Below are positions 10,865-42,838 of a stretch of 64,000 nucleotides of DNA, one piece after another. Made by a program: the position numbers and the translations under genes. The first letter of the stretch is position 1; the number at the start of each line of letters is the position of its first letter. The DNA is taken from contig CAXARO010000157.1 in assembly GCA_963971305.1 (NCBI GenBank), forward strand, positions 1 to 64,000, read 5' to 3'. Under the pieces are notes generated by a model. The model ran no database searches. It had not been told where the DNA came from and saw only the letters and a program-made list of their open reading frames with translations. The stretch is from Arcuatula senhousia (lineage: Eukaryota; Mollusca; Bivalvia; Mytilida; Mytilidae).

Positions 10865-10887
10865 ATGCATATTTCATTCCATCGGAA

Positions 10888-11186: not shown

Positions 11187-11454
11187 TTGATCAAGTGGGC
11201 GGAGCTTAATTACAGATTTCTTAACAAATGTGTAAGTGTGCGGAGAAAACAAACAAAACTGATGTGCTATGTTTCAAGTTTATGAAACACAGATCGTTCT
11301 TTATATTTAGTGCTTAGCTAAATTTAGCTCTGCCTTTAAACGCTTTAGCGCTTTGATTTCATTGGTTGTTATATCCCCGTAACACTGGGACGAAGACCTT
11401 CAAGTTGTTAGTACGTTTTTAGAACGGAGTGAAAATGGGACAAAAATATTGTTT
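11187..11454. other. Possible promoter-proximal non-coding sequence
   Basis: Contains an inverted CCAAT box and GCTTTAGCGCTTTGATTTCA, but no TATA box or start I can defend. Confidence 0.35.
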
Positions 11455-11620
11455 CCACGTTTTAACTACGATTGCTCTACGTCCTTAGAAGGACCACACA
11501 GAGACTTCAAAGTCTGCAACAAAGTTCCTTCTAGGTGTATCACGTTTTTACTACATCTCTTCTACGTTCATCACGTCTTCACTACGTTTCAACTACGTTC
11601 TCGCTACGATTGTACTGCTA
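11455..11620 (+). repeat. Degenerate short tandem repeat of (C)TACGTT type
   Basis: CACGTTTTAACTACG, CTCTACGTCC, then after a gap CACGTTTTTACTACATC, TTCTACGTTCATCACG, CACTACGTTTCAACTACG and CTCGCTACG follow one another at roughly 10-13 bp spacing. Two overlapping open frames here (from 11449 and from 11535) have repeat-driven composition (YHVFTTSLLRS, FYVHHVFTTFQLRS) and are not called genes. Confidence 0.5.
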
Positions 11621-11751
11621 CTATCCGTTTTGCAATACGTCTTTAATAAGTTTGCTTTTTAGCTCCCAAACCATGCAAAGACAGTACGATGACCGGATTA
11701 ATTCGTTTAAACCTCTCAAATACTGACTGGATAGGGATTTACCAACAGCTT
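11621..11751. other. Unique flank adjoining the satellite array
   Basis: No feature is seen. It ends ACCAACAGCTTA, immediately before the first satellite unit. Confidence 0.6.
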
Positions 11752-12409
11752 ACGATGCAAGACACAGTTTCGTATAAAATACTAGTGAGTTTTACCAAAT
11801 ACATTAACCACAGGTAAGGGAATCCCTGTCTATTCATATACCTGAAGTGAAAATCATGTAATATTTTTAACTTTTATGATTGTTTAGATATATTTTTGTA
11901 TTAAAAATGCCACAACAGGTTTATTTTCTTTTTTAAAATTTTTTTTATAAGCACTTCAGTGTGAAGGGAGACAACTATAAATCCCGCCATATTTGCAGAT
12001 GTCAAAATGACACTTTTCAGGTAAACAAAAATATTTTTCTTTAGAGCTGGAAAGCGTACCCTTTTTGTTCCCAATTTTTGCTCTTATTGACATGCTCTTT
12101 CAAGCGATTTATCATTTTGACTTGAAATTTTCCCACAAGGCAGTGGAATTTAGCCTCAGAAATGGGATGACACCCATAAATTTAACACAAAACACCCCTT
12201 TTTTTGTTCATTTTGGACAGTTTTGATGAAATATTCAAATATGAATAAGTTTACTAGGCAGGTTCCATTAAAAAGTGGTGAATTTCAGCTTTTTATTGAT
12301 ATATAGATGTCCATATTACAGGAAAATATCTTATTTCCATTCAAGCATGAAGGTGATGTTGCTTTCATCTGATGACGTCACTTTGCAAAACTATACCTTG
12401 CACCCTTTA
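11752..12409 (+). repeat. Segment A of the satellite unit (unit 1 copy), MITE-like
   Basis: Unit positions 1-658. The ends are imperfect inverted repeats. The left CGATGCAAGACACAGTTTCG faces the reverse complement of the right end, GGGTGCAAGGTATAGTTTTG, with TGCAAG and AGTTT at the same spacing; 15 of 22 positions match and most mismatches are transitions. Inside the array A is flanked on both sides by TTTAAA (13160-13165 and 13819-13824 around the second copy). Exactly this segment is missing from the two short units. It contains AAGGGAGACAACT (11964-11976), a variant of the common molluscan motif. A non-autonomous DNA element co-amplified with the satellite is the favoured reading. Chance terminal similarity is not excluded. 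Confidence 0.5.
12373..12380. promoter_or_regulatory. CRE palindrome in segment A (first of 36)
   Basis: TGACGTCA is the perfect CREB/ATF consensus, at unit position 622, present in every full-length unit and absent from the short units. Function is not shown by sequence alone. Confidence 0.4.
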
Positions 12410-12599
12410 AAGGCATATATACTTACTTTATGAATCATTTTTAGGGTCTACTTGGTTTATTTTGGTCTTGGATACAATTGTCAATTTGTTTACAAACACA
12501 AGACCAATGTATTGGTACAATTTTGGCTCAGTAACATTCATAATTCTCATGAAAACTCCATAGTAACCAGTAAAACACTCAAAGTCATTGTGCAATATG

Positions 12600-12607
12600 T
12601 GACGTCA
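12600..12607. promoter_or_regulatory. CRE palindrome in segment B (first of 38)
   Basis: A second perfect TGACGTCA, 227 bp after the first, at unit position 849. It is kept in the short units (for example 63567). Confidence 0.4.
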
Positions 12608-12709
12608 TTTCATACTTTTGCGACGTTTCATGTCTTTCGCATTCACAGATGGAACAATATGTGACTTAGAAACCATTTATAGTACATAAAATTAAAAATT
12701 ATCATTAAC

Positions 12710-12735
12710 CATCTACCACATGTATACAGTAGATG
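12710..12735 (+). other. Hairpin followed by T8 in segment B
   Basis: CATCTAC (12710-12716) pairs with GTAGATG (12729-12735) around a 12-base loop. A C and then eight T follow. The stem plus T run could stop RNA polymerase III or form a cruciform. No internal A/B box promoter was found, so it is reported only as structure. Confidence 0.5.
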
Positions 12736-12770
12736 CTTTTTTTTACATTTAGCTAGTAAAGTATGTTAAA

Positions 12771-12801
12771 TGGGTATTGCACAAACCATCTGTAATACCC
12801 A
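12771..12801 (+). other. Second hairpin in segment B
   Basis: TGGGTATT (12771-12778) pairs perfectly with AATACCCA (12794-12801) around a 15-base loop. It lies 35 bp after the first hairpin and is repeated in every unit. Confidence 0.55.
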
Positions 12802-15800
12802 AATTCTTAAATAAACTTAAAATGACCCTATTTTATGGCAAAACTAGGTGAAAAACAATTCCCTTTGAATGTTTTTTTTAGATTAACTATGTTTAATTGC
12901 CATCACAATATTACTTTTATTAAGATAATTATGTTAAATTGTTTAAAAAGCATAGTATTGATATAAGCTTCACATTTCAGCTTAAAACAGTTCATGAATG
13001 CAAAAAATCCAAAAATCTTCATCGCAAGGTCTTGTATGAGAATCTGTATGTTTTCGCTATTTTTTATCGCAACGACAAAAATAAGGTACCATTGTGTTCG
13101 CAATAAGATACCGAAACAGAAAAATTTGCTTTCATCAGAGAATTCATGCATCATAATGCTTTAAACGATGCAAGACACAGTTTCGTATAAAATACTAGTG
13201 AGTTTTACCAAATACATTAACCACAGGTAAGGGAATCCCTGTCTATTCATATACCTGAAGTGAAAATCATGTAATATTTTTAACTTTTATGATTGTTTAG
13301 ATATATTTTTGTATTAAAAATGCCACAACAGGTTTATTTTCTTTTTTAAAATTTTTTTTATAAGCACTTCAGTGTGAAGGGAGACAACTATAAATCCCGC
13401 CATATTTGCAGATGTCAAAATGACACTTTTCAGGTAAACAAAAATATTTTTCTTTAGAGCTGGAAAGCGTACCCTTTTTGTTCCCAATTTTTGCTCTTAT
13501 TGACATGCTCTTTCAAGCGATTTATCATTTTGACTTGAAATTTTCCCACAAGGCAGTGGAATTTAGCCTCAGAAATGGGATGACACCCATAAATTTAACA
13601 CAAAACACCCCTTTTTTTGTTCATTTTGGACAGTTTTGATGAAATATTCAAATATGAATAAGTTTACTAGGCAGGTTCCATTAAAAAGTGGTGAATTTCA
13701 GCTTTTTATTGATATATAGATGTCCATATTACAGGAAAATATCTTATTTCCATTCAAGCATGAAGGTGATGTTGCTTTCATCTGATGACGTCACTTTGCA
13801 AAACTATACCTTGCACCCTTTAAAGGCATATATACTTACTTTATGAATCATTTTTAGGGTCTACTTGGTTTATTTTGGTCTTGGATACAATTGTCAATTT
13901 GTTTACAAACACAAGACCAATGTATTGGTACAATTTTGGCTCAGTAACATTCATAATTCTCATGAAAACTCCATAGTAACCAGTAAAACACTCAAAGTCA
14001 TTGTGCAATATGTGACGTCATTTCATACTTTTGCGACGTTTCATGTCTTTCGCATTCACAGATGGAACAATATGTGACTTAGAAACCATTTATAGTACAT
14101 AAAATTAAAAATTATCATTAACCATCTACCACATGTATACAGTAGATGCTTTTTTTTACATTTAGCTAGTAAAGTATGTTAAATGGGTATTGCACAAACC
14201 ATCTGTAATACCCAAATTCTTAAATAAACTTAAAATGACCCTATTTTATGGCAAAACTAGGTGAAAAACAATTCCCTTTGAATGTTTTTTTTAGATTAAC
14301 TATGTTTAATTGCCATCACAATATTACTTTTATTAAGATAATTATGTTAAATTGTTTAAAAAGCATAGTATTGATATAAGCTTCACATTTCAGCTTAAAA
14401 CAGTTCATGAATGCAAAAAATCCAAAAATCTTCATCGCAAGGTCTTGTATGAGAATCTGTATGTTTTCGCTATTTTTTATCGCAACGACAAAAATAAGGT
14501 ACCATTGTGTTCGCAATAAGATACCGAAACAGAAAAATTTGCTTTCATCAGAGAATTCATGCATCATAATGCTTTAAACGATGCAAGACACAGTTTCGTA
14601 TAAAATACTAGTGAGTTTTACCAAATACATTAACCACAGGTAAGGGAATCCCTGTCTATTCATATACCTGAAGTGAAAATCATGTAATATTTTTAACTTT
14701 TATGATTGTTTAGATATATTTTTGTATTAAAAATGCCACAACAGGTTTATTTTCTTTTTTAAAATTTTTTTTATAAGCACTTCAGTGTGAAGGGAGACAA
14801 CTATAAATCCCGCCATATTTGCAGATGTCAAAATGACACTTTTCAGGTAAACAAAAATATTTTTCTTTAGAGCTGGAAAGCGTACCCTTTTTGTTCCCAA
14901 TTTTTGCTCTTATTGACATGCTCTTTCAAGCGATTTATCATTTTGACTTGAAATTTTCCCACAAGGCAGTGGAATTTAGCCTCAGAAATGGGATGACACC
15001 CATAAATTTAACACAAAACACCCCTTTTTTTGTTCATTTTGGACAGTTTTGATGAAATATTCAAATATGAATAAGTTTACTAGGCAGGTTCCATTAAAAA
15101 GTGGTGAATTTCAGCTTTTTATTGATATATAGATGTCCATATTACAGGAAAATATCTTATTTCCATTCAAGCATGAAGGTGATGTTGCTTTCATCTGATG
15201 ACGTCACTTTGCAAAACTATACCTTGCACCCTTTAAAGGCATATATACTTACTTTATGAATCATTTTTAGGGTCTACTTGGTTTATTTTGGTCTTGGATA
15301 CAATTGTCAATTTGTTTACAAACACAAGACCAATGTATTGGTACAATTTTGGCTCAGTAACATTCATAATTCTCATGAAAACTCCATAGTAACCAGTAAA
15401 ACACTCAAAGTCATTGTGCAATATGTGACGTCATTTCATACTTTTGCGACGTTTCATGTCTTTCGCATTCACAGATGGAACAATATGTGACTTAGAAACC
15501 ATTTATAGTACATAAAATTAAAAATTATCATTAACCATCTACCACATGTATACAGTAGATGCTTTTTTTTACATTTAGCTAGTAAAGTATGTTAAATGGG
15601 TATTGCACAAACCATCTGTAATACCCAAATTCTTAAATAAACTTAAAATGACCCTATTTTATGGCAAAACTAGGTGAAAAACAATTCCCTTTGAATGTTT
15701 TTTTTAGATTAACTATGTTTAATTGCCATCACAATATTACTTTTATTAAGATAATTATGTTAAATTGTTTAAAAAGCATAGTATTGATATAAGCTTCACA

Positions 15801-18800
15801 TTTCAGCTTAAAACAGTTCATGAATGCAAAAAATCCAAAAATCTTCATCGCAAGGTCTTGTATGAGAATCTGTATGTTTTCGCTATTTTTTATCGCAACG
15901 ACAAAAATAAGGTACCATTGTGTTCGCAATAAGATACCGAAACAGAAAAATTTGCTTTCATCAGAGAATTCATGCATCATAATGCTTTAAACGATGCAAG
16001 ACACAGTTTCGTATAAAATACTAGTGAGTTTTACCAAATACATTAACCACAGGTAAGGGAATCCCTGTCTATTCATATACCTGAAGTGAAAATCATGTAA
16101 TATTTTTAACTTTTATGATTGTTTAGATATATTTTTGTATTAAAAATGCCACAACAGGTTTATTTTCTTTTTTAAAATTTTTTTTATAAGCACTTCAGTG
16201 TGAAGGGAGACAACTATAAATCCCGCCATATTTGCAGATGTCAAAATGACACTTTTCAGGTAAACAAAAATATTTTTCTTTAGAGCTGGAAAGCGTACCC
16301 TTTTTGTTCCCAATTTTTGCTCTTATTGACATGCTCTTTCAAGCGATTTATCATTTTGACTTGAAATTTTCCCACAAGGCAGTGGAATTTAGCCTCAGAA
16401 ATGGGATGACACCCATAAATTTAACACAAAACACCCCTTTTTTTGTTCATTTTGGACAGTTTTGATGAAATATTCAAATATGAATAAGTTTACTAGGCAG
16501 GTTCCATTAAAAAGTGGTGAATTTCAGCTTTTTATTGATATATAGATGTCCATATTACAGGAAAATATCTTATTTCCATTCAAGCATGAAGGTGATGTTG
16601 CTTTCATCTGATGACGTCACTTTGCAAAACTATACCTTGCACCCTTTAAAGGCATATATACTTACTTTATGAATCATTTTTAGGGTCTACTTGGTTTATT
16701 TTGGTCTTGGATACAATTGTCAATTTGTTTACAAACACAAGACCAATGTATTGGTACAATTTTGGCTCAGTAACATTCATAATTCTCATGAAAACTCCAT
16801 AGTAACCAGTAAAACACTCAAAGTCATTGTGCAATATGTGACGTCATTTCATACTTTTGCGACGTTTCATGTCTTTCGCATTCACAGATGGAACAATATG
16901 TGACTTAGAAACCATTTATAGTACATAAAATTAAAAATTATCATTAACCATCTACCACATGTATACAGTAGATGCTTTTTTTTACATTTAGCTAGTAAAG
17001 TATGTTAAATGGGTATTGCACAAACCATCTGTAATACCCAAATTCTTAAATAAACTTAAAATGACCCTATTTTATGGCAAAACTAGGTGAAAAACAATTC
17101 CCTTTGAATGTTTTTTTTAGATTAACTATGTTTAATTGCCATCACAATATTACTTTTATTAAGATAATTATGTTAAATTGTTTAAAAAGCATAGTATTGA
17201 TATAAGCTTCACATTTCAGCTTAAAACAGTTCATGAATGCAAAAAATCCAAAAATCTTCATCGCAAGGTCTTGTATGAGAATCTGTATGTTTTCGCTATT
17301 TTTTATCGCAACGACAAAAATAAGGTACCATTGTGTTCGCAATAAGATACCGAAACAGAAAAATTTGCTTTCATCAGAGAATTCATGCATCATAATGCTT
17401 TAAACGATGCAAGACACAGTTTCGTATAAAATACTAGTGAGTTTTACCAAATACATTAACCACAGGTAAGGGAATCCCTGTCTATTCATATACCTGAAGT
17501 GAAAATCATGTAATATTTTTAACTTTTATGATTGTTTAGATATATTTTTGTATTAAAAATGCCACAACAGGTTTATTTTCTTTTTTAAAATTTTTTTTAT
17601 AAGCACTTCAGTGTGAAGGGAGACAACTATAAATCCCGCCATATTTGCAGATGTCAAAATGACACTTTTCAGGTAAACAAAAATATTTTTCTTTAGAGCT
17701 GGAAAGCGTACCCTTTTTGTTCCCAATTTTTGCTCTTATTGACATGCTCTTTCAAGCGATTTATCATTTTGACTTGAAATTTTCCCACAAGGCAGTGGAA
17801 TTTAGCCTCAGAAATGGGATGACACCCATAAATTTAACACAAAACACCCCTTTTTTTGTTCATTTTGGACAGTTTTGATGAAATATTCAAATATGAATAA
17901 GTTTACTAGGCAGGTTCCATTAAAAAGTGGTGAATTTCAGCTTTTTATTGATATATAGATGTCCATATTACAGGAAAATATCTTATTTCCATTCAAGCAT
18001 GAAGGTGATGTTGCTTTCATCTGATGACGTCACTTTGCAAAACTATACCTTGCACCCTTTAAAGGCATATATACTTACTTTATGAATCATTTTTAGGGTC
18101 TACTTGGTTTATTTTGGTCTTGGATACAATTGTCAATTTGTTTACAAACACAAGACCAATGTATTGGTACAATTTTGGCTCAGTAACATTCATAATTCTC
18201 ATGAAAACTCCATAGTAACCAGTAAAACACTCAAAGTCATTGTGCAATATGTGACGTCATTTCATACTTTTGCGACGTTTCATGTCTTTCGCATTCACAG
18301 ATGGAACAATATGTGACTTAGAAACCATTTATAGTACATAAAATTAAAAATTATCATTAACCATCTACCACATGTATACAGTAGATGCTTTTTTTTACAT
18401 TTAGCTAGTAAAGTATGTTAAATGGGTATTGCACAAACCATCTGTAATACCCAAATTCTTAAATAAACTTAAAATGACCCTATTTTATGGCAAAACTAGG
18501 TGAAAAACAATTCCCTTTGAATGTTTTTTTTAGATTAACTATGTTTAATTGCCATCACAATATTACTTTTATTAAGATAATTATGTTAAATTGTTTAAAA
18601 AGCATAGTATTGATATAAGCTTCACATTTCAGCTTAAAACAGTTCATGAATGCAAAAAATCCAAAAATCTTCATCGCAAGGTCTTGTATGAGAATCTGTA
18701 TGTTTTCGCTATTTTTTATCGCAACGACAAAAATAAGGTACCATTGTGTTCGCAATAAGATACCGAAACAGAAAAATTTGCTTTCATCAGAGAATTCATG

Positions 18801-21800
18801 CATCATAATGCTTTAAACGATGCAAGACACAGTTTCGTATAAAATACTAGTGAGTTTTACCAAATACATTAACCACAGGTAAGGGAATCCCTGTCTATTC
18901 ATATACCTGAAGTGAAAATCATGTAATATTTTTAACTTTTATGATTGTTTAGATATATTTTTGTATTAAAAATGCCACAACAGGTTTATTTTCTTTTTTA
19001 AAATTTTTTTTATAAGCACTTCAGTGTGAAGGGAGACAACTATAAATCCCGCCATATTTGCAGATGTCAAAATGACACTTTTCAGGTAAACAAAAATATT
19101 TTTCTTTAGAGCTGGAAAGCGTACCCTTTTTGTTCCCAATTTTTGCTCTTATTGACATGCTCTTTCAAGCGATTTATCATTTTGACTTGAAATTTTCCCA
19201 CAAGGCAGTGGAATTTAGCCTCAGAAATGGGATGACACCCATAAATTTAACACAAAACACCCCTTTTTTTGTTCATTTTGGACAGTTTTGATGAAATATT
19301 CAAATATGAATAAGTTTACTAGGCAGGTTCCATTAAAAAGTGGTGAATTTCAGCTTTTTATTGATATATAGATGTCCATATTACAGGAAAATATCTTATT
19401 TCCATTCAAGCATGAAGGTGATGTTGCTTTCATCTGATGACGTCACTTTGCAAAACTATACCTTGCACCCTTTAAAGGCATATATACTTACTTTATGAAT
19501 CATTTTTAGGGTCTACTTGGTTTATTTTGGTCTTGGATACAATTGTCAATTTGTTTACAAACACAAGACCAATGTATTGGTACAATTTTGGCTCAGTAAC
19601 ATTCATAATTCTCATGAAAACTCCATAGTAACCAGTAAAACACTCAAAGTCATTGTGCAATATGTGACGTCATTTCATACTTTTGCGACGTTTCATGTCT
19701 TTCGCATTCACAGATGGAACAATATGTGACTTAGAAACCATTTATAGTACATAAAATTAAAAATTATCATTAACCATCTACCACATGTATACAGTAGATG
19801 CTTTTTTTTACATTTAGCTAGTAAAGTATGTTAAATGGGTATTGCACAAACCATCTGTAATACCCAAATTCTTAAATAAACTTAAAATGACCCTATTTTA
19901 TGGCAAAACTAGGTGAAAAACAATTCCCTTTGAATGTTTTTTTTAGATTAACTATGTTTAATTGCCATCACAATATTACTTTTATTAAGATAATTATGTT
20001 AAATTGTTTAAAAAGCATAGTATTGATATAAGCTTCACATTTCAGCTTAAAACAGTTCATGAATGCAAAAAATCCAAAAATCTTCATCGCAAGGTCTTGT
20101 ATGAGAATCTGTATGTTTTCGCTATTTTTTATCGCAACGACAAAAATAAGGTACCATTGTGTTCGCAATAAGATACCGAAACAGAAAAATTTGCTTTCAT
20201 CAGAGAATTCATGCATCATAATGCTTTAAACGATGCAAGACACAGTTTCGTATAAAATACTAGTGAGTTTTACCAAATACATTAACCACAGGTAAGGGAA
20301 TCCCTGTCTATTCATATACCTGAAGTGAAAATCATGTAATATTTTTAACTTTTATGATTGTTTAGATATATTTTTGTATTAAAAATGCCACAACAGGTTT
20401 ATTTTCTTTTTTAAAATTTTTTTTATAAGCACTTCAGTGTGAAGGGAGACAACTATAAATCCCGCCATATTTGCAGATGTCAAAATGACACTTTTCAGGT
20501 AAACAAAAATATTTTTCTTTAGAGCTGGAAAGCGTACCCTTTTTGTTCCCAATTTTTGCTCTTATTGACATGCTCTTTCAAGCGATTTATCATTTTGACT
20601 TGAAATTTTCCCACAAGGCAGTGGAATTTAGCCTCAGAAATGGGATGACACCCATAAATTTAACACAAAACACCCCTTTTTTTGTTCATTTTGGACAGTT
20701 TTGATGAAATATTCAAATATGAATAAGTTTACTAGGCAGGTTCCATTAAAAAGTGGTGAATTTCAGCTTTTTATTGATATATAGATGTCCATATTACAGG
20801 AAAATATCTTATTTCCATTCAAGCATGAAGGTGATGTTGCTTTCATCTGATGACGTCACTTTGCAAAACTATACCTTGCACCCTTTAAAGGCATATATAC
20901 TTACTTTATGAATCATTTTTAGGGTCTACTTGGTTTATTTTGGTCTTGGATACAATTGTCAATTTGTTTACAAACACAAGACCAATGTATTGGTACAATT
21001 TTGGCTCAGTAACATTCATAATTCTCATGAAAACTCCATAGTAACCAGTAAAACACTCAAAGTCATTGTGCAATATGTGACGTCATTTCATACTTTTGCG
21101 ACGTTTCATGTCTTTCGCATTCACAGATGGAACAATATGTGACTTAGAAACCATTTATAGTACATAAAATTAAAAATTATCATTAACCATCTACCACATG
21201 TATACAGTAGATGCTTTTTTTTACATTTAGCTAGTAAAGTATGTTAAATGGGTATTGCACAAACCATCTGTAATACCCAAATTCTTAAATAAACTTAAAA
21301 TGACCCTATTTTATGGCAAAACTAGGTGAAAAACAATTCCCTTTGAATGTTTTTTTTAGATTAACTATGTTTAATTGCCATCACAATATTACTTTTATTA
21401 AGATAATTATGTTAAATTGTTTAAAAAGCATAGTATTGATATAAGCTTCACATTTCAGCTTAAAACAGTTCATGAATGCAAAAAATCCAAAAATCTTCAT
21501 CGCAAGGTCTTGTATGAGAATCTGTATGTTTTCGCTATTTTTTATCGCAACGACAAAAATAAGGTACCATTGTGTTCGCAATAAGATACCGAAACAGAAA
21601 AATTTGCTTTCATCAGAGAATTCATGCATCATAATGCTTTAAACGATGCAAGACACAGTTTCGTATAAAATACTAGTGAGTTTTACCAAATACATTAACC
21701 ACAGGTAAGGGAATCCCTGTCTATTCATATACCTGAAGTGAAAATCATGTAATATTTTTAACTTTTATGATTGTTTAGATATATTTTTGTATTAAAAATG

Positions 21801-24800
21801 CCACAACAGGTTTATTTTCTTTTTTAAAATTTTTTTTATAAGCACTTCAGTGTGAAGGGAGACAACTATAAATCCCGCCATATTTGCAGATGTCAAAATG
21901 ACACTTTTCAGGTAAACAAAAATATTTTTCTTTAGAGCTGGAAAGCGTACCCTTTTTGTTCCCAATTTTTGCTCTTATTGACATGCTCTTTCAAGCGATT
22001 TATCATTTTGACTTGAAATTTTCCCACAAGGCAGTGGAATTTAGCCTCAGAAATGGGATGACACCCATAAATTTAACACAAAACACCCCTTTTTTTGTTC
22101 ATTTTGGACAGTTTTGATGAAATATTCAAATATGAATAAGTTTACTAGGCAGGTTCCATTAAAAAGTGGTGAATTTCAGCTTTTTATTGATATATAGATG
22201 TCCATATTACAGGAAAATATCTTATTTCCATTCAAGCATGAAGGTGATGTTGCTTTCATCTGATGACGTCACTTTGCAAAACTATACCTTGCACCCTTTA
22301 AAGGCATATATACTTACTTTATGAATCATTTTTAGGGTCTACTTGGTTTATTTTGGTCTTGGATACAATTGTCAATTTGTTTACAAACACAAGACCAATG
22401 TATTGGTACAATTTTGGCTCAGTAACATTCATAATTCTCATGAAAACTCCATAGTAACCAGTAAAACACTCAAAGTCATTGTGCAATATGTGACGTCATT
22501 TCATACTTTTGCGACGTTTCATGTCTTTCGCATTCACAGATGGAACAATATGTGACTTAGAAACCATTTATAGTACATAAAATTAAAAATTATCATTAAC
22601 CATCTACCACATGTATACAGTAGATGCTTTTTTTTACATTTAGCTAGTAAAGTATGTTAAATGGGTATTGCACAAACCATCTGTAATACCCAAATTCTTA
22701 AATAAACTTAAAATGACCCTATTTTATGGCAAAACTAGGTGAAAAACAATTCCCTTTGAATGTTTTTTTTAGATTAACTATGTTTAATTGCCATCACAAT
22801 ATTACTTTTATTAAGATAATTATGTTAAATTGTTTAAAAAGCATAGTATTGATATAAGCTTCACATTTCAGCTTAAAACAGTTCATGAATGCAAAAAATC
22901 CAAAAATCTTCATCGCAAGGTCTTGTATGAGAATCTGTATGTTTTCGCTATTTTTTATCGCAACGACAAAAATAAGGTACCATTGTGTTCGCAATAAGAT
23001 ACCGAAACAGAAAAATTTGCTTTCATCAGAGAATTCATGCATCATAATGCTTTAAACGATGCAAGACACAGTTTCGTATAAAATACTAGTGAGTTTTACC
23101 AAATACATTAACCACAGGTAAGGGAATCCCTGTCTATTCATATACCTGAAGTGAAAATCATGTAATATTTTTAACTTTTATGATTGTTTAGATATATTTT
23201 TGTATTAAAAATGCCACAACAGGTTTATTTTCTTTTTTAAAATTTTTTTTATAAGCACTTCAGTGTGAAGGGAGACAACTATAAATCCCGCCATATTTGC
23301 AGATGTCAAAATGACACTTTTCAGGTAAACAAAAATATTTTTCTTTAGAGCTGGAAAGCGTACCCTTTTTGTTCCCAATTTTTGCTCTTATTGACATGCT
23401 CTTTCAAGCGATTTATCATTTTGACTTGAAATTTTCCCACAAGGCAGTGGAATTTAGCCTCAGAAATGGGATGACACCCATAAATTTAACACAAAACACC
23501 CCTTTTTTTGTTCATTTTGGACAGTTTTGATGAAATATTCAAATATGAATAAGTTTACTAGGCAGGTTCCATTAAAAAGTGGTGAATTTCAGCTTTTTAT
23601 TGATATATAGATGTCCATATTACAGGAAAATATCTTATTTCCATTCAAGCATGAAGGTGATGTTGCTTTCATCTGATGACGTCACTTTGCAAAACTATAC
23701 CTTGCACCCTTTAAAGGCATATATACTTACTTTATGAATCATTTTTAGGGTCTACTTGGTTTATTTTGGTCTTGGATACAATTGTCAATTTGTTTACAAA
23801 CACAAGACCAATGTATTGGTACAATTTTGGCTCAGTAACATTCATAATTCTCATGAAAACTCCATAGTAACCAGTAAAACACTCAAAGTCATTGTGCAAT
23901 ATGTGACGTCATTTCATACTTTTGCGACGTTTCATGTCTTTCGCATTCACAGATGGAACAATATGTGACTTAGAAACCATTTATAGTACATAAAATTAAA
24001 AATTATCATTAACCATCTACCACATGTATACAGTAGATGCTTTTTTTTACATTTAGCTAGTAAAGTATGTTAAATGGGTATTGCACAAACCATCTGTAAT
24101 ACCCAAATTCTTAAATAAACTTAAAATGACCCTATTTTATGGCAAAACTAGGTGAAAAACAATTCCCTTTGAATGTTTTTTTTAGATTAACTATGTTTAA
24201 TTGCCATCACAATATTACTTTTATTAAGATAATTATGTTAAATTGTTTAAAAAGCATAGTATTGATATAAGCTTCACATTTCAGCTTAAAACAGTTCATG
24301 AATGCAAAAAATCCAAAAATCTTCATCGCAAGGTCTTGTATGAGAATCTGTATGTTTTCGCTATTTTTTATCGCAACGACAAAAATAAGGTACCATTGTG
24401 TTCGCAATAAGATACCGAAACAGAAAAATTTGCTTTCATCAGAGAATTCATGCATCATAATGCTTTAAACGATGCAAGACACAGTTTCGTATAAAATACT
24501 AGTGAGTTTTACCAAATACATTAACCACAGGTAAGGGAATCCCTGTCTATTCATATACCTGAAGTGAAAATCATGTAATATTTTTAACTTTTATGATTGT
24601 TTAGATATATTTTTGTATTAAAAATGCCACAACAGGTTTATTTTCTTTTTTAAAATTTTTTTTATAAGCACTTCAGTGTGAAGGGAGACAACTATAAATC
24701 CCGCCATATTTGCAGATGTCAAAATGACACTTTTCAGGTAAACAAAAATATTTTTCTTTAGAGCTGGAAAGCGTACCCTTTTTGTTCCCAATTTTTGCTC

Positions 24801-27800
24801 TTATTGACATGCTCTTTCAAGCGATTTATCATTTTGACTTGAAATTTTCCCACAAGGCAGTGGAATTTAGCCTCAGAAATGGGATGACACCCATAAATTT
24901 AACACAAAACACCCCTTTTTTTGTTCATTTTGGACAGTTTTGATGAAATATTCAAATATGAATAAGTTTACTAGGCAGGTTCCATTAAAAAGTGGTGAAT
25001 TTCAGCTTTTTATTGATATATAGATGTCCATATTACAGGAAAATATCTTATTTCCATTCAAGCATGAAGGTGATGTTGCTTTCATCTGATGACGTCACTT
25101 TGCAAAACTATACCTTGCACCCTTTAAAGGCATATATACTTACTTTATGAATCATTTTTAGGGTCTACTTGGTTTATTTTGGTCTTGGATACAATTGTCA
25201 ATTTGTTTACAAACACAAGACCAATGTATTGGTACAATTTTGGCTCAGTAACATTCATAATTCTCATGAAAACTCCATAGTAACCAGTAAAACACTCAAA
25301 GTCATTGTGCAATATGTGACGTCATTTCATACTTTTGCGACGTTTCATGTCTTTCGCATTCACAGATGGAACAATATGTGACTTAGAAACCATTTATAGT
25401 ACATAAAATTAAAAATTATCATTAACCATCTACCACATGTATACAGTAGATGCTTTTTTTTACATTTAGCTAGTAAAGTATGTTAAATGGGTATTGCACA
25501 AACCATCTGTAATACCCAAATTCTTAAATAAACTTAAAATGACCCTATTTTATGGCAAAACTAGGTGAAAAACAATTCCCTTTGAATGTTTTTTTTAGAT
25601 TAACTATGTTTAATTGCCATCACAATATTACTTTTATTAAGATAATTATGTTAAATTGTTTAAAAAGCATAGTATTGATATAAGCTTCACATTTCAGCTT
25701 AAAACAGTTCATGAATGCAAAAAATCCAAAAATCTTCATCGCAAGGTCTTGTATGAGAATCTGTATGTTTTCGCTATTTTTTATCGCAACGACAAAAATA
25801 AGGTACCATTGTGTTCGCAATAAGATACCGAAACAGAAAAATTTGCTTTCATCAGAGAATTCATGCATCATAATGCTTTAAACGATGCAAGACACAGTTT
25901 CGTATAAAATACTAGTGAGTTTTACCAAATACATTAACCACAGGTAAGGGAATCCCTGTCTATTCATATACCTGAAGTGAAAATCATGTAATATTTTTAA
26001 CTTTTATGATTGTTTAGATATATTTTTGTATTAAAAATGCCACAACAGGTTTATTTTCTTTTTTAAAATTTTTTTTATAAGCACTTCAGTGTGAAGGGAG
26101 ACAACTATAAATCCCGCCATATTTGCAGATGTCAAAATGACACTTTTCAGGTAAACAAAAATATTTTTCTTTAGAGCTGGAAAGCGTACCCTTTTTGTTC
26201 CCAATTTTTGCTCTTATTGACATGCTCTTTCAAGCGATTTATCATTTTGACTTGAAATTTTCCCACAAGGCAGTGGAATTTAGCCTCAGAAATGGGATGA
26301 CACCCATAAATTTAACACAAAACACCCCTTTTTTTGTTCATTTTGGACAGTTTTGATGAAATATTCAAATATGAATAAGTTTACTAGGCAGGTTCCATTA
26401 AAAAGTGGTGAATTTCAGCTTTTTATTGATATATAGATGTCCATATTACAGGAAAATATCTTATTTCCATTCAAGCATGAAGGTGATGTTGCTTTCATCT
26501 GATGACGTCACTTTGCAAAACTATACCTTGCACCCTTTAAAGGCATATATACTTACTTTATGAATCATTTTTAGGGTCTACTTGGTTTATTTTGGTCTTG
26601 GATACAATTGTCAATTTGTTTACAAACACAAGACCAATGTATTGGTACAATTTTGGCTCAGTAACATTCATAATTCTCATGAAAACTCCATAGTAACCAG
26701 TAAAACACTCAAAGTCATTGTGCAATATGTGACGTCATTTCATACTTTTGCGACGTTTCATGTCTTTCGCATTCACAGATGGAACAATATGTGACTTAGA
26801 AACCATTTATAGTACATAAAATTAAAAATTATCATTAACCATCTACCACATGTATACAGTAGATGCTTTTTTTTACATTTAGCTAGTAAAGTATGTTAAA
26901 TGGGTATTGCACAAACCATCTGTAATACCCAAATTCTTAAATAAACTTAAAATGACCCTATTTTATGGCAAAACTAGGTGAAAAACAATTCCCTTTGAAT
27001 GTTTTTTTTAGATTAACTATGTTTAATTGCCATCACAATATTACTTTTATTAAGATAATTATGTTAAATTGTTTAAAAAGCATAGTATTGATATAAGCTT
27101 CACATTTCAGCTTAAAACAGTTCATGAATGCAAAAAATCCAAAAATCTTCATCGCAAGGTCTTGTATGAGAATCTGTATGTTTTCGCTATTTTTTATCGC
27201 AACGACAAAAATAAGGTACCATTGTGTTCGCAATAAGATACCGAAACAGAAAAATTTGCTTTCATCAGAGAATTCATGCATCATAATGCTTTAAACGATG
27301 CAAGACACAGTTTCGTATAAAATACTAGTGAGTTTTACCAAATACATTAACCACAGGTAAGGGAATCCCTGTCTATTCATATACCTGAAGTGAAAATCAT
27401 GTAATATTTTTAACTTTTATGATTGTTTAGATATATTTTTGTATTAAAAATGCCACAACAGGTTTATTTTCTTTTTTAAAATTTTTTTTATAAGCACTTC
27501 AGTGTGAAGGGAGACAACTATAAATCCCGCCATATTTGCAGATGTCAAAATGACACTTTTCAGGTAAACAAAAATATTTTTCTTTAGAGCTGGAAAGCGT
27601 ACCCTTTTTGTTCCCAATTTTTGCTCTTATTGACATGCTCTTTCAAGCGATTTATCATTTTGACTTGAAATTTTCCCACAAGGCAGTGGAATTTAGCCTC
27701 AGAAATGGGATGACACCCATAAATTTAACACAAAACACCCCTTTTTTTGTTCATTTTGGACAGTTTTGATGAAATATTCAAATATGAATAAGTTTACTAG

Positions 27801-28707
27801 GCAGGTTCCATTAAAAAGTGGTGAATTTCAGCTTTTTATTGATATATAGATGTCCATATTACAGGAAAATATCTTATTTCCATTCAAGCATGAAGGTGAT
27901 GTTGCTTTCATCTGATGACGTCACTTTGCAAAACTATACCTTGCACCCTTTAAAGGCATATATACTTACTTTATGAATCATTTTTAGGGTCTACTTGGTT
28001 TATTTTGGTCTTGGATACAATTGTCAATTTGTTTACAAACACAAGACCAATGTATTGGTACAATTTTGGCTCAGTAACATTCATAATTCTCATGAAAACT
28101 CCATAGTAACCAGTAAAACACTCAAAGTCATTGTGCAATATGTGACGTCATTTCATACTTTTGCGACGTTTCATGTCTTTCGCATTCACAGATGGAACAA
28201 TATGTGACTTAGAAACCATTTATAGTACATAAAATTAAAAATTATCATTAACCATCTACCACATGTATACAGTAGATGCTTTTTTTTACATTTAGCTAGT
28301 AAAGTATGTTAAATGGGTATTGCACAAACCATCTGTAATACCCAAATTCTTAAATAAACTTAAAATGACCCTATTTTATGGCAAAACTAGGTGAAAAACA
28401 ATTCCCTTTGAATGTTTTTTTTAGATTAACTATGTTTAATTGCCATCACAATATTACTTTTATTAAGATAATTATGTTAAATTGTTTAAAAAGCATAGTA
28501 TTGATATAAGCTTCACATTTCAGCTTAAAACAGTTCATGAATGCAAAAAATCCAAAAATCTTCATCGCAAGGTCTTGTATGAGAATCTGTATGTTTTCGC
28601 TATTTTTTATCGCAACGACAAAAATAAGGTACCATTGTGTTCGCAATAAGATACCGAAACAGAAAAATTTGCTTTCATCAGAGAATTCATGCATCATAAT
28701 GCTTTAA

Positions 28708-30121
28708 ACGATGCAAGACACAGTTTCGTATAAAATACTAGTGAGTTTTACCAAATACATTAACCACAGGTAAGGGAATCCCTGTCTATTCATATACCTG
28801 AAGTGAAAATCATGTAATATTTTTAACTTTTATGATTGTTTAGATATATTTTTGTATTAAAAATGCCACAACAGGTTTATTTTCTTTTTTAAAATTTTTT
28901 TTTATAAGCACTTCAGTGTGAAGGGAGACAACTATAAATCCCGCCATATTTGCAGATGTCAAAATGACACTTTTCAGGTAAACAAAAATATTTTTCTTTA
29001 GAGCTGGAAAGCGTACCCTTTTTGTTCCCAATTTTTGCTCTTATTGACATGCTCTTTCAAGCGATTTATCATTTTGACTTGAAATTTTCCCACAAGGCAG
29101 TGGAATTTAGCCTCAGAAATGGGATGACACCCATAAATTTAACACAAAACACCCCTTTTTTTGTTCATTTTGGACAGTTTTGATGAAATATTCAAATATG
29201 AATAAGTTTACTAGGCAGGTTCCATTAAAAAGTGGTGAATTTCAGCTTTTTATTGATATATAGATGTCCATATTACAGGAAAATATCTTATTTCCATTCA
29301 AGCATGAAGGTGATGTTGCTTTCATCTGATGACGTCACTTTGCAAAACTATACCTTGCACCCTTTAAAGGCATATATACTTACTTTATGAATCATTTTTA
29401 GGGTCTACTTGGTTTATTTTGGTCTTGGATACAATTGTCAATTTGTTTACAAACACAAGACCAATGTATTGGTACAATTTTGGCTCAGTAACATTCATAA
29501 TTCTCATGAAAACTCCATAGTAACCAGTAAAACACTCAAAGTCATTGTGCAATATGTGACGTCATTTCATACTTTTGCGACGTTTCATGTCTTTCGCATT
29601 CACAGATGGAACAATATGTGACTTAGAAACCATTTATAGTACATAAAATTAAAAATTATCATTAACCATCTACCACATGTATACAGTAGATGCTTTTTTT
29701 TACATTTAGCTAGTAAAGTATGTTAAATGGGTATTGCACAAACCATCTGTAATACCCAAATTCTTAAATAAACTTAAAATGACCCTATTTTATGGCAAAA
29801 CTAGGTGAAAAACAATTCCCTTTGAATGTTTTTTTTAGATTAACTATGTTTAATTGCCATCACAATATTACTTTTATTAAGATAATTATGTTAAATTGTT
29901 TAAAAAGCATAGTATTGATATAAGCTTCACATTTCAGCTTAAAACAGTTCATGAATGCAAAAAATCCAAAAATCTTCATCGCAAGGTCTTGTATGAGAAT
30001 CTGTATGTTTTCGCTATTTTTTATCGCAACGACAAAAATAAGGTACCATTGTGTTCGCAATAAGATACCGAAACAGAAAAATTTGCTTTCATCAGAGAAT
30101 TCATGCATCATAATGCTTTAA
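28708..30121 (+). repeat. Satellite unit 13, 1414 bp (T9 variant)
   Basis: The T run after TTTTTTAAAA has nine T (28895-28903) where other units have eight. This shifts local open frames. It is a real variant or a homopolymer error, shared with unit 23. Confidence 0.8.
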
Positions 30122-33100
30122 ACGATGCAAGACACAGTTTCGTATAAAATACTAGTGAGTTTTACCAAATACATTAACCACAGGTAAGGGAATCCCTGTC
30201 TATTCATATACCTGAAGTGAAAATCATGTAATATTTTTAACTTTTATGATTGTTTAGATATATTTTTGTATTAAAAATGCCACAACAGGTTTATTTTCTT
30301 TTTTAAAATTTTTTTTATAAGCACTTCAGTGTGAAGGGAGACAACTATAAATCCCGCCATATTTGCAGATGTCAAAATGACACTTTTCAGGTAAACAAAA
30401 ATATTTTTCTTTAGAGCTGGAAAGCGTACCCTTTTTGTTCCCAATTTTTGCTCTTATTGACATGCTCTTTCAAGCGATTTATCATTTTGACTTGAAATTT
30501 TCCCACAAGGCAGTGGAATTTAGCCTCAGAAATGGGATGACACCCATAAATTTAACACAAAACACCCCTTTTTTTGTTCATTTTGGACAGTTTTGATGAA
30601 ATATTCAAATATGAATAAGTTTACTAGGCAGGTTCCATTAAAAAGTGGTGAATTTCAGCTTTTTATTGATATATAGATGTCCATATTACAGGAAAATATC
30701 TTATTTCCATTCAAGCATGAAGGTGATGTTGCTTTCATCTGATGACGTCACTTTGCAAAACTATACCTTGCACCCTTTAAAGGCATATATACTTACTTTA
30801 TGAATCATTTTTAGGGTCTACTTGGTTTATTTTGGTCTTGGATACAATTGTCAATTTGTTTACAAACACAAGACCAATGTATTGGTACAATTTTGGCTCA
30901 GTAACATTCATAATTCTCATGAAAACTCCATAGTAACCAGTAAAACACTCAAAGTCATTGTGCAATATGTGACGTCATTTCATACTTTTGCGACGTTTCA
31001 TGTCTTTCGCATTCACAGATGGAACAATATGTGACTTAGAAACCATTTATAGTACATAAAATTAAAAATTATCATTAACCATCTACCACATGTATACAGT
31101 AGATGCTTTTTTTTACATTTAGCTAGTAAAGTATGTTAAATGGGTATTGCACAAACCATCTGTAATACCCAAATTCTTAAATAAACTTAAAATGACCCTA
31201 TTTTATGGCAAAACTAGGTGAAAAACAATTCCCTTTGAATGTTTTTTTTAGATTAACTATGTTTAATTGCCATCACAATATTACTTTTATTAAGATAATT
31301 ATGTTAAATTGTTTAAAAAGCATAGTATTGATATAAGCTTCACATTTCAGCTTAAAACAGTTCATGAATGCAAAAAATCCAAAAATCTTCATCGCAAGGT
31401 CTTGTATGAGAATCTGTATGTTTTCGCTATTTTTTATCGCAACGACAAAAATAAGGTACCATTGTGTTCGCAATAAGATACCGAAACAGAAAAATTTGCT
31501 TTCATCAGAGAATTCATGCATCATAATGCTTTAAACGATGCAAGACACAGTTTCGTATAAAATACTAGTGAGTTTTACCAAATACATTAACCACAGGTAA
31601 GGGAATCCCTGTCTATTCATATACCTGAAGTGAAAATCATGTAATATTTTTAACTTTTATGATTGTTTAGATATATTTTTGTATTAAAAATGCCACAACA
31701 GGTTTATTTTCTTTTTTAAAATTTTTTTTATAAGCACTTCAGTGTGAAGGGAGACAACTATAAATCCCGCCATATTTGCAGATGTCAAAATGACACTTTT
31801 CAGGTAAACAAAAATATTTTTCTTTAGAGCTGGAAAGCGTACCCTTTTTGTTCCCAATTTTTGCTCTTATTGACATGCTCTTTCAAGCGATTTATCATTT
31901 TGACTTGAAATTTTCCCACAAGGCAGTGGAATTTAGCCTCAGAAATGGGATGACACCCATAAATTTAACACAAAACACCCCTTTTTTTGTTCATTTTGGA
32001 CAGTTTTGATGAAATATTCAAATATGAATAAGTTTACTAGGCAGGTTCCATTAAAAAGTGGTGAATTTCAGCTTTTTATTGATATATAGATGTCCATATT
32101 ACAGGAAAATATCTTATTTCCATTCAAGCATGAAGGTGATGTTGCTTTCATCTGATGACGTCACTTTGCAAAACTATACCTTGCACCCTTTAAAGGCATA
32201 TATACTTACTTTATGAATCATTTTTAGGGTCTACTTGGTTTATTTTGGTCTTGGATACAATTGTCAATTTGTTTACAAACACAAGACCAATGTATTGGTA
32301 CAATTTTGGCTCAGTAACATTCATAATTCTCATGAAAACTCCATAGTAACCAGTAAAACACTCAAAGTCATTGTGCAATATGTGACGTCATTTCATACTT
32401 TTGCGACGTTTCATGTCTTTCGCATTCACAGATGGAACAATATGTGACTTAGAAACCATTTATAGTACATAAAATTAAAAATTATCATTAACCATCTACC
32501 ACATGTATACAGTAGATGCTTTTTTTTACATTTAGCTAGTAAAGTATGTTAAATGGGTATTGCACAAACCATCTGTAATACCCAAATTCTTAAATAAACT
32601 TAAAATGACCCTATTTTATGGCAAAACTAGGTGAAAAACAATTCCCTTTGAATGTTTTTTTTAGATTAACTATGTTTAATTGCCATCACAATATTACTTT
32701 TATTAAGATAATTATGTTAAATTGTTTAAAAAGCATAGTATTGATATAAGCTTCACATTTCAGCTTAAAACAGTTCATGAATGCAAAAAATCCAAAAATC
32801 TTCATCGCAAGGTCTTGTATGAGAATCTGTATGTTTTCGCTATTTTTTATCGCAACGACAAAAATAAGGTACCATTGTGTTCGCAATAAGATACCGAAAC
32901 AGAAAAATTTGCTTTCATCAGAGAATTCATGCATCATAATGCTTTAAACGATGCAAGACACAGTTTCGTATAAAATACTAGTGAGTTTTACCAAATACAT
33001 TAACCACAGGTAAGGGAATCCCTGTCTATTCATATACCTGAAGTGAAAATCATGTAATATTTTTAACTTTTATGATTGTTTAGATATATTTTTGTATTAA

Positions 33101-36100
33101 AAATGCCACAACAGGTTTATTTTCTTTTTTAAAATTTTTTTTATAAGCACTTCAGTGTGAAGGGAGACAACTATAAATCCCGCCATATTTGCAGATGTCA
33201 AAATGACACTTTTCAGGTAAACAAAAATATTTTTCTTTAGAGCTGGAAAGCGTACCCTTTTTGTTCCCAATTTTTGCTCTTATTGACATGCTCTTTCAAG
33301 CGATTTATCATTTTGACTTGAAATTTTCCCACAAGGCAGTGGAATTTAGCCTCAGAAATGGGATGACACCCATAAATTTAACACAAAACACCCCTTTTTT
33401 TGTTCATTTTGGACAGTTTTGATGAAATATTCAAATATGAATAAGTTTACTAGGCAGGTTCCATTAAAAAGTGGTGAATTTCAGCTTTTTATTGATATAT
33501 AGATGTCCATATTACAGGAAAATATCTTATTTCCATTCAAGCATGAAGGTGATGTTGCTTTCATCTGATGACGTCACTTTGCAAAACTATACCTTGCACC
33601 CTTTAAAGGCATATATACTTACTTTATGAATCATTTTTAGGGTCTACTTGGTTTATTTTGGTCTTGGATACAATTGTCAATTTGTTTACAAACACAAGAC
33701 CAATGTATTGGTACAATTTTGGCTCAGTAACATTCATAATTCTCATGAAAACTCCATAGTAACCAGTAAAACACTCAAAGTCATTGTGCAATATGTGACG
33801 TCATTTCATACTTTTGCGACGTTTCATGTCTTTCGCATTCACAGATGGAACAATATGTGACTTAGAAACCATTTATAGTACATAAAATTAAAAATTATCA
33901 TTAACCATCTACCACATGTATACAGTAGATGCTTTTTTTTACATTTAGCTAGTAAAGTATGTTAAATGGGTATTGCACAAACCATCTGTAATACCCAAAT
34001 TCTTAAATAAACTTAAAATGACCCTATTTTATGGCAAAACTAGGTGAAAAACAATTCCCTTTGAATGTTTTTTTTAGATTAACTATGTTTAATTGCCATC
34101 ACAATATTACTTTTATTAAGATAATTATGTTAAATTGTTTAAAAAGCATAGTATTGATATAAGCTTCACATTTCAGCTTAAAACAGTTCATGAATGCAAA
34201 AAATCCAAAAATCTTCATCGCAAGGTCTTGTATGAGAATCTGTATGTTTTCGCTATTTTTTATCGCAACGACAAAAATAAGGTACCATTGTGTTCGCAAT
34301 AAGATACCGAAACAGAAAAATTTGCTTTCATCAGAGAATTCATGCATCATAATGCTTTAAACGATGCAAGACACAGTTTCGTATAAAATACTAGTGAGTT
34401 TTACCAAATACATTAACCACAGGTAAGGGAATCCCTGTCTATTCATATACCTGAAGTGAAAATCATGTAATATTTTTAACTTTTATGATTGTTTAGATAT
34501 ATTTTTGTATTAAAAATGCCACAACAGGTTTATTTTCTTTTTTAAAATTTTTTTTATAAGCACTTCAGTGTGAAGGGAGACAACTATAAATCCCGCCATA
34601 TTTGCAGATGTCAAAATGACACTTTTCAGGTAAACAAAAATATTTTTCTTTAGAGCTGGAAAGCGTACCCTTTTTGTTCCCAATTTTTGCTCTTATTGAC
34701 ATGCTCTTTCAAGCGATTTATCATTTTGACTTGAAATTTTCCCACAAGGCAGTGGAATTTAGCCTCAGAAATGGGATGACACCCATAAATTTAACACAAA
34801 ACACCCCTTTTTTTGTTCATTTTGGACAGTTTTGATGAAATATTCAAATATGAATAAGTTTACTAGGCAGGTTCCATTAAAAAGTGGTGAATTTCAGCTT
34901 TTTATTGATATATAGATGTCCATATTACAGGAAAATATCTTATTTCCATTCAAGCATGAAGGTGATGTTGCTTTCATCTGATGACGTCACTTTGCAAAAC
35001 TATACCTTGCACCCTTTAAAGGCATATATACTTACTTTATGAATCATTTTTAGGGTCTACTTGGTTTATTTTGGTCTTGGATACAATTGTCAATTTGTTT
35101 ACAAACACAAGACCAATGTATTGGTACAATTTTGGCTCAGTAACATTCATAATTCTCATGAAAACTCCATAGTAACCAGTAAAACACTCAAAGTCATTGT
35201 GCAATATGTGACGTCATTTCATACTTTTGCGACGTTTCATGTCTTTCGCATTCACAGATGGAACAATATGTGACTTAGAAACCATTTATAGTACATAAAA
35301 TTAAAAATTATCATTAACCATCTACCACATGTATACAGTAGATGCTTTTTTTTACATTTAGCTAGTAAAGTATGTTAAATGGGTATTGCACAAACCATCT
35401 GTAATACCCAAATTCTTAAATAAACTTAAAATGACCCTATTTTATGGCAAAACTAGGTGAAAAACAATTCCCTTTGAATGTTTTTTTTAGATTAACTATG
35501 TTTAATTGCCATCACAATATTACTTTTATTAAGATAATTATGTTAAATTGTTTAAAAAGCATAGTATTGATATAAGCTTCACATTTCAGCTTAAAACAGT
35601 TCATGAATGCAAAAAATCCAAAAATCTTCATCGCAAGGTCTTGTATGAGAATCTGTATGTTTTCGCTATTTTTTATCGCAACGACAAAAATAAGGTACCA
35701 TTGTGTTCGCAATAAGATACCGAAACAGAAAAATTTGCTTTCATCAGAGAATTCATGCATCATAATGCTTTAAACGATGCAAGACACAGTTTCGTATAAA
35801 ATACTAGTGAGTTTTACCAAATACATTAACCACAGGTAAGGGAATCCCTGTCTATTCATATACCTGAAGTGAAAATCATGTAATATTTTTAACTTTTATG
35901 ATTGTTTAGATATATTTTTGTATTAAAAATGCCACAACAGGTTTATTTTCTTTTTTAAAATTTTTTTTATAAGCACTTCAGTGTGAAGGGAGACAACTAT
36001 AAATCCCGCCATATTTGCAGATGTCAAAATGACACTTTTCAGGTAAACAAAAATATTTTTCTTTAGAGCTGGAAAGCGTACCCTTTTTGTTCCCAATTTT

Positions 36101-41425: not shown

Positions 41426-42838
41426 ACGATGCAAGACATAGTTTCGTATAAAATACTAGTGAGTTTTACCAAATACATTAACCACAGGTAAGGGAATCCC
41501 TGTCTATTCATATACCTGAAGTGAAAATCATGTAATATTTTTAACTTTTATGATTGTTTAGATATATTTTTGTATTAAAAATGCCACAACAGGTTTATTT
41601 TCTTTTTTAAAATTTTTTTTATAAGCACTTCAGTGTGAAGGGAGACAACTATAAATCCCGCCATATTTGCAGATGTCAAAATGACACTTTTCAGGTAAAC
41701 AAAAATATTTTTCTTTAGAGCTGGAAAGCGTACCCTTTTTGTTCCCAATTTTTGCTCTTATTGACATGCTCTTTCAAGCGATTTATCATTTTGACTTGAA
41801 ATTTTCCCACAAGGCAGTGGAATTTAGCCTCAGAAATGGGATGACACCCATAAATTTAACACAAAACACCCCTTTTTTTGTTCATTTTGGACAGTTTTGA
41901 TGAAATATTCAAATATGAATAAGTTTACTAGGCAGGTTCCATTAAAAAGTGGTGAATTTCAGCTTTTTATTGATATATAGATGTCCATATTACAGGAAAA
42001 TATCTTATTTCCATTCAAGCATGAAGGTGATGTTGCTTTCATCTGATGACGTCACTTTGCAAAACTATACCTTGCACCCTTTAAAGGCATATATACTTAC
42101 TTTATGAATCATTTTTAGGGTCTACTTGGTTTATTTTGGTCTTGGATACAATTGTCAATTTGTTTACAAACACAAGACCAATGTATTGGTACAATTTTGG
42201 CTCAGTAACATTCATAATTCTCATGAAAACTCCATAGTAACCAGTAAAACACTCAAAGTCATTGTGCAATATGTGACGTCATTTCATACTTTTGCGACGT
42301 TTCATGTCTTTCGCATTCACAGATGGAACAATATGTGACTTAGAAACCATTTATAGTACATAAAATTAAAAATTATCATTAACCATCTACCACATGTATA
42401 CAGTAGATGCTTTTTTTTACATTTAGCTAGTAAAGTATGTTAAATGGGTATTGCACAAACCATCTGTAATACCCAAATTCTTAAATAAACTTAAAATGAC
42501 CCTATTTTATGGCAAAACTAGGTGAAAAACAATTCCCTTTGAATGTTTTTTTTAGATTAACTATGTTTAATTGCCATCACAATATTACTTTTATTAAGAT
42601 AATTATGTTAAATTGTTTAAAAAGCATAGTATTGATATAAGCTTCACATTTCAGCTTAAAACAGTTCATGAATGCAAAAAATCCAAAAATCTTCATCGCA
42701 AGGTCTTGTATGAGAATCTGTATGTTTTCGCTATTTTTTATCGCAACGACAAAAATAAGGTACCATTGTGTTCGCAATAAGATACCGAAACAGAAAAATT
42801 TGCTTTCATCAGAGAATTCATGCATCATAATGCTTTAA
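41426..42838 (+). repeat. Satellite unit 22 with a C-to-T change
   Basis: At 41439 (unit position 14) GACACAG is GACATAG. It is the only substitution I noticed among the full units, and it falls inside the left terminal repeat of segment A. Confidence 0.8.

Follow-up and report, generated by a model that had tools for sequence, protein, structure and literature searches.

A satellite-scale array in the bivalve Arcuatula senhousia as a probable multimer of a non-autonomous KolobokP transposon

Described KolobokP elements and the array in the window

DNA transposons of the KolobokP lineage, described in 2022 by Kojima and Bao with 228 published families (PMC9587614; this and the other papers are cited from partial text), carry long terminal direct repeats (LTDRs) of ~450 or 660 bp, which possess their own terminal inverted repeats (TIRs) of 11-18 bp, perfect or imperfect, and enclose an internal region (INT). 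Their target duplications measure 3-4 or 4-5 bp; solo LTDRs, multimers and microdeletions at INT-INT junctions have been reported, together with a transposase and an opposite-strand His-Me nuclease, and Kolobok ends read 5'-RR..YY-3' (PMC9587614). Non-autonomous KolobokP families of Crassostrea gigas are 1738-3261 bp long, and the word "satellite" is absent from the main text of that paper as available (PMC9587614). In C. gigas, however, the 2414-bp satellites CgiSat13 and CgiSat16 were labelled DNA/Kolobok (PMC8268682), and satellite-scale Kolobok repeats are therefore not new as such. Here, we analysed a 64-kb stretch of the Arcuatula senhousia genome (the window hereafter), namely the first 64 kb of the 77,764-base contig CAXARO010000157.1 (C166) in an assembly of 1.04 Gb and 1803 contigs, which from position 11752 onwards consists of tandem 1413-bp units. 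With a probability of roughly 0.93, this array represents the multimeric form, (LTDR-INT)n-LTDR, taken by a non-autonomous KolobokP DNA transposon whose mobile unit is LTDR-INT-LTDR.

Read from sequence, the case is built on the LTDR-INT structure with its common boundaries and target duplications, on solo LTDRs and multimers, on the classes of footprint, and on a relative in which sequences for a transposase and a nuclease are present. The resemblance to KolobokP comprises the ~660-bp LTDR with short TIRs, the INT, solo LTDRs and LTDR-sharing multimers, as well as small INT-INT deletions, target duplications at multimer ends and the gene pair of the coding relative; moreover, the length of LTDR-INT-LTDR in the window (2066 bp) falls within the range given for C. 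gigas (PMC9587614). Two features differ: arrays in this genome extend to 39 LTDRs (57 kb) and 46 LTDRs (64 kb), whereas the available text spells out at most LTDR-(INT)4-LTDR, and the left end reads 5'-CG instead of RR (PMC9587614). CgiSat13 and CgiSat16 can be set beside the array by their description, in which the available text makes no mention of an LTDR/INT anatomy, target duplications or footprints (PMC8268682). The element is of a known kind; what makes it interesting is that its arrays are of satellite scale and retain both the transposon ends and the target duplications.

A preliminary description of this DNA had recognised a composite satellite unit made of a segment A, absent from short units, and a segment B. 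This much was borne out: the unit is tandem and composite, with A corresponding to the LTDR and B to the INT. The units begin with that at 11752-13164 and continue through the window end to C166:69118 (~57 kb). Within the window, the array splits into 38 stretches, 36 of them full units (1413 or 1414 bp) and two without A (one of 755 bp, the other of 624 bp and cut by the window end), the deficit of short against full units being exactly 658 bp. Missing A aside, the units are near-identical, with three variable alignment columns: one single-nucleotide polymorphism (unit 22), a 1-bp T insertion (units 13 and 23), and A/T at two B-B junctions. Corrected limits place the LTDR at 11753-12405 (CGATG..CACCC, 653 bp) and the INT at 12406-13165 (TTTAAA..TTTAAA, 760 bp), so that TTTAAA is present at both A/B borders. 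Over the whole contig, the array holds 39 LTDRs and 42 INTs with A at both extremes, the last LTDR being without its final 2 bases. The three open frames of the unit had no Pfam match above cut-off, and no coding potential was found in it. The features are as follows.

11753..12405, plus strand: first LTDR (segment A, 653 bp, CGATGCAAG..CTTGCACCC), recurring every 1413 bp; outer limits drawn from other loci, by their empty sites and target duplications
11753..11770, plus strand: left TIR of the LTDR (CGATGCAAGACACAGTTT); 13/18 positions match the right end, counted by eye
12388..12405, minus strand: right TIR of the LTDR (reverse complement GGGTGCAAGGTATAGTTT)
12406..13165, plus strand: INT (segment B, 760 bp), TTTAAA at start and end, inverted ends TTTAAAGGCAT / TTTAAAGCAT
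11750..11752, plus strand: left copy of the target TTA
11752..64000, plus strand: probable KolobokP multimer, running on to C166:69118
52721..52737, plus strand: INT-INT junction (AATGCTTTTAAAGGCAT), apparently left by LTDR loss
63367..63383, plus strand: INT-INT junction of the same form as at 52721..52737
C166:64122 and C166:66290, past the window: two further INT-INT junctions, that at 66290 of a different form
11583..11751, plus strand: 169-bp flank, perfectly repeated on the far side of the array at C166:69119-69287

Insertion ends, other loci and competing explanations

The outer ends of the element are defined by its insertion sites. Native empty sites occur at three loci, where the element lies inside another tandem repeat whose sibling units are intact and uninserted. 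Furthermore, a 3-bp target duplication (NNA) is identical on both sides at 12 of 13 independent loci, the triplets TAA, TTA, TCA, AAA, ATA and CAA all ending in A; when the right flanks were permuted, the mean was 2.85 matches, and 12 were never reached in 20000 permutations. A duplication of 2 bp was rejected in favour of 3 bp because the third right-flank base is A at 13/13 loci. Included in this set are three solo A copies, two of which are 89-90% identical to the A of the window, and the arrays at C1:26.08-26.11 Mb and C2:41.84-41.90 Mb (the latter 64 kb), for which 21 and 46 left ends are listed, respectively; left out were L048 and L050 (partly read, complex), L053 (another family), the second copy of a duplication at C3:44.33 Mb, and the window array with its broken right end. 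The loci added to the first ones for this set come from the first 100 of 1064 left-end matches, on contigs C1-C4; every one of them has a perfect 23-base left end, which leaves old copies under-represented. The left-end pattern itself, with up to 3 mismatches, gave those 1064 matches (coding relative included) versus 1 for the reversed pattern.

The inverted ends of A had been noticed beforehand, and an imperfect 18-bp TIR (TGCAAG....AGTTT, inverted, 13/18 matching) is indeed present at the true insertion ends, although by shuffling alone it is a weak signal: an equally good match arose in 196/2000 dinucleotide shuffles of A alone, and in 10/2000 with the TTTAA context. We nevertheless regard the LTDR ends as real because insertion boundaries and target duplications at other loci fall exactly there.

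A search of the genome DNA led to related places on C3, C2 and C393 (4 of 592 first-look candidates scored). The loci read with their flanks are arranged as A-B-A (three, two of which are a local duplication of each other), A-B-A-B-A and A-B-A-B-B-A, and the A-B-A plan with a 653-bp A was seen at monomers as well as at multimers, the latter on C166, C393, C3, C1 and C2. Within a locus, A copies show 0-1 differences in 653 bases (3 of the 39 window copies and every copy at the other five loci compared), while between loci they show 19-32/653, except for the window versus C3:20.30 Mb, which differ at 2-4 positions and have identical B. As A is even within a locus and diverged between loci, each locus received, or later evened out, a single A sequence. 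The array at C5:7.87-7.94 Mb was considered as an allele of the window array and rejected; its pieces are ~96-97% identical to the window unit, and the compared flanks matched once, weakly (56 bases, 75%).

The preliminary description had explained the composite unit differently, by a miniature inverted-repeat transposable element (MITE), A, that jumped into one unit of an older satellite B, after which A+B was amplified. This accounts for the inverted ends of A, for its solo copies with 3-bp target duplications outside the unit, and for its clean absence from some units. Tandem MITEs and a new composite element arising through insertion are also known from coral CMITE arrays, which differ in having TTAA targets and a piggyBac-like affiliation and for which the available text does not mention long direct terminal repeats (PMC2872659). 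Yet A was outermost at both ends in all six loci first examined, and the TTTAAA of the A-B borders is not the insertion duplication, which at the outer ends is NNA. Moreover, the A-B plan and its borders are shared by a transposase family with a different INT, and the within-locus identity of A would not be expected from two independent MITE copies flanking B. The A-free B arrays that were anticipated did not emerge either: in a scan with one exact pattern, no run exceeded 7 consecutive copies, the longest (C10:46.70 Mb, flanks not read) comprising six INT-INT junctions. Thus, B is better understood as the internal region of an A-B-A transposon, and we consider an insertion into an older satellite very improbable.

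The loss of A from arrays does appear clean. In the short units, INT is joined to INT, with footprints of four forms, as would be expected from LTDR excision. An exact pattern allowing 0-4 bases between fixed ends found 54 such junctions and none in the reversed control, namely TTTTAAA (30), TTTAAAA (11), TTTAAA (7) and TTTAAAAA (6); longer footprints and diverged junctions would be missed by this pattern. The same form recurs within arrays, and the 54 junctions are therefore not 54 independent events. C166 contains four INT-INT junctions, of which three read AATGCTTTTAAAGG and the fourth AATGCTTTAAAGG; a third form, AATGCTTTAAAAGG, occurs at C3:20.30 Mb. Every form can be written as the loss of an LTDR together with 4-6 bases from one side, which is near the 1-5 bases given as lost on a single side in KolobokP (PMC9587614).

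An even less probable alternative is a non-autonomous long terminal repeat (LTR) retrotransposon of the terminal-repeat retrotransposon in miniature (TRIM) type, in which A would be the LTR and the arrays LTR-sharing tandems. Direct repeats identical per locus, solo and tandem forms, and an A that reads TG..CA near its ends would all suit such an element. LTR elements, however, have target duplications of 4-6 bp, unlike the 3 bp found here; the constant bases lie outside TG..CA; no polypurine tract precedes A (..AATGCTTTAAA), as judged by reading; and, instead of a reverse transcriptase, the related family encodes a transposase together with a His-Me nuclease sequence. Terminal direct repeats, repeat-sharing tandems and solo repeats are likewise found in biv-TRIM (PMC6934838) and in tandem LTR retrotransposons (PMC11899658), which differ in moving by retrotransposition. 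For instance, biv-TRIM has repeats of 202-218 bp around 77-80 bp and a polypurine tract (PMC6934838), and the tandem LTR retrotransposons have a 5-nt target duplication (PMC11899658).

That the array is an assembly artefact of a short, 78-kb unplaced contig, as its near-identical units might suggest, is just as improbable, as separate arrays with their own flanks, about 95-97% identical to the window units, lie inside the long contigs C1, C2 and C5, and the window array is marked internally by INT-INT junctions of two forms, the single-nucleotide polymorphism and indels.

The coding relative and points that weigh against a KolobokP assignment

A relative with coding sequence was found at C3:31.82-31.86 Mb, with 11 left ends spaced by ~3825 bases (3824-bp units). 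Its A-like part is identical to the window LTDR at 445 of 663 aligned columns and shares the first 22 bases; its internal region (3.2 kb) differs from that of the window and is longer, while the TTTAAA borders are shared. On the minus strand, the relative carries a 670-aa open frame matching the Mutator-like transposase family PF20700 (E 7.3e-34), of which ten copies at C3:31.82 Mb are without stops; its translation shows a CxxH motif (CFVH), and no solved structure was matched by its sequence. On the plus strand near the left border, opposite to the transposase, lie two overlapping open pieces. One matches PF05551, the zinc-binding region of His-Me homing endonucleases (E 2.1e-11), its best solved-structure match being I-PpoI (E 0.0098); the second had no Pfam match when the pieces were searched apart.

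Further transposase families exist in the genome as arrays and monomers, two of which were read. In that on C278, comparison of the long and short unit gives an LTDR of 654 bp with ends GGATGTGG; that at C4:54.69 Mb has two identical 694-bp LTDRs, an 18-base terminal repeat and the target duplication TTA. Two other families of this genome start with GG and finish with CC. As for the spacing within arrays, transposase copies recur mostly every 3794 or 3136 bases on C278, every 3825 bases on C598 and every 4255 at C15:21.12 Mb, and on C1381 INT-INT junctions recur mostly every 2169 bases, like a higher-order LTDR-INT-INT unit.

Several observations weigh against the KolobokP assignment. The nuclease frame of the relative is in two overlapping pieces, one of them without a Pfam match, which makes its activity uncertain, and the right end of the relative's array lies ~55 bases inside the INT. 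The LTDR is only 67% identical to that of the transposase family, and the true helper may be another family. The left end of both the window element and the transposase relative reads 5'-CG, not RR, under a 3-bp duplication (or GA, with one more base assigned to a constant flank), whereas the right end, CC-3', fits. Among the 13 loci, that at C4:10.40 Mb has mismatched flanks (ATA/TTA). Array edges are not always clean, as the last A of the C5:7.87 Mb array carries an internal deletion, and the window array, truncated at the right and followed by the 169-bp duplication, does not have its own target duplication intact. Finally, the case for mobility of the element is indirect, made by comparison of sequences.

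Growth of the array, its edge and its borders

We propose that a transposase supplied from elsewhere, conceivably by such a relative, would cut the outer left and outer right LTDR ends and insert the piece with a 3-bp NNA duplication. Once the piece is inserted, unequal exchange between its identical direct repeats, perhaps triggered by the KolobokP nuclease, would add or remove LTDR-INT units, and the locus could in this way reach satellite scale and the 39 copies seen here. Likewise, excision of single LTDRs by the transposase, with loss of a few flanking bases, would generate the short INT-INT units. Unequal exchange between direct repeats seems the simplest reading of the growth, and it fits because target duplications are intact at the outer edges of the 21- and 46-LTDR arrays.

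At the right edge of the window array, the final LTDR breaks at CTTGCAC. Next comes a perfect second copy of the 169 bases found ahead of the array, and beyond this copy, in the right flank, the uninserted target cagcTTAgtggcgg is intact (C166:69282-69295). CAC is common to the broken LTDR end and to the bases just before the 169-bp segment, a microhomology at the joint. We infer that a chromosome with the insertion and one without it were joined at CAC in the course of repair or exchange.

Conversion of transposons to satellites is usually argued from degraded relics. Here, one genome holds the stages together, from solo LTDR, monomer and dimer to a 46-LTDR array, with target duplications in place, and beside them stand arrays of the coding relative with open transposase frames. 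This suggests that tandem arrays which would be classed as satellites in a satellite survey can have grown in place from a single transposon insertion. By its size and completeness, the present array makes a useful example of the passage from transposon to satellite. Furthermore, the nuclease-driven multimer model, described as awaiting experimental validation (PMC9587614), gains concrete test loci.

A further proposal, which we consider improbable, is that the LTDR/INT border is the cutting site of the KolobokP nuclease. At both borders, TTTAAA lies in inverted, near-palindromic settings (CACCC-TTTAAA-GGCAT and, reversed, CATCG-TTTAAA-GCATT), and these borders are retained in the family with a different INT; I-PpoI leaves 4-base TTAA overhangs (PMC9587614). 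If two borders were cut and rejoined via TTAA, exactly the shortest INT-INT junction (AATGCTTTAAAGGCAT) would result, and if one border were cut, repair from the neighbouring unit would add units. The C4 family detracts from this idea: there, the INT starts with ATATGGCA and finishes with TGCATTAT, not TTTAAA. Were it true, non-coding arrays would be built up into satellites in trans by the nuclease from a few coding copies. In four families (window, L053, C278 and C4), the INT ends seem to resemble mutual inverted repeats, for example TTTAAAGGCAT/TTTAAAGCATT and TTAATGCTAG/TTAAAGCAAT, and a site for binding or cutting may therefore be present at both borders of the INT.

With respect to insertion sites, KolobokP copies at L041, L042, L044 and L053 lie within unrelated direct repeats, the host units being near 2 kb, 491 and 168 bp and L053 showing two copies 127 bp apart, which might reflect a preference or survival bias. 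At L047 (C1:5.58 Mb, 717-2334), a transposon end has become a tandem repeat by another route: past a solo LTDR, its last 76 bases and ~438 flank bases are in tandem every 514.

A self-cleaving ribozyme (retrozyme) reading of the array was rejected from the Rfam searches: window positions 1-16000 contained no family at gathering score, and a relaxed threshold over 11700-13900 gave three matches, all below gathering score and none a ribozyme. An exact 26-mer from A had 0 matches in GTDB genome contigs and 0 in IMG/VR. Upstream of the array, the window contains other repeats: a minisatellite of ~22 copies of a 21-bp unit (TTTTTTATTAATATGGAAGAT) at 10399-10863, ~900 bp before the array; inverted ~600-bp copies at 746-1348 and 5080-5678, 95% identical and with 3.7 kb between them, perhaps a dispersed element; and a 300-bp MITE-like element at 9366-9665, whose inverted ends of 39 bases are 90% complementary.

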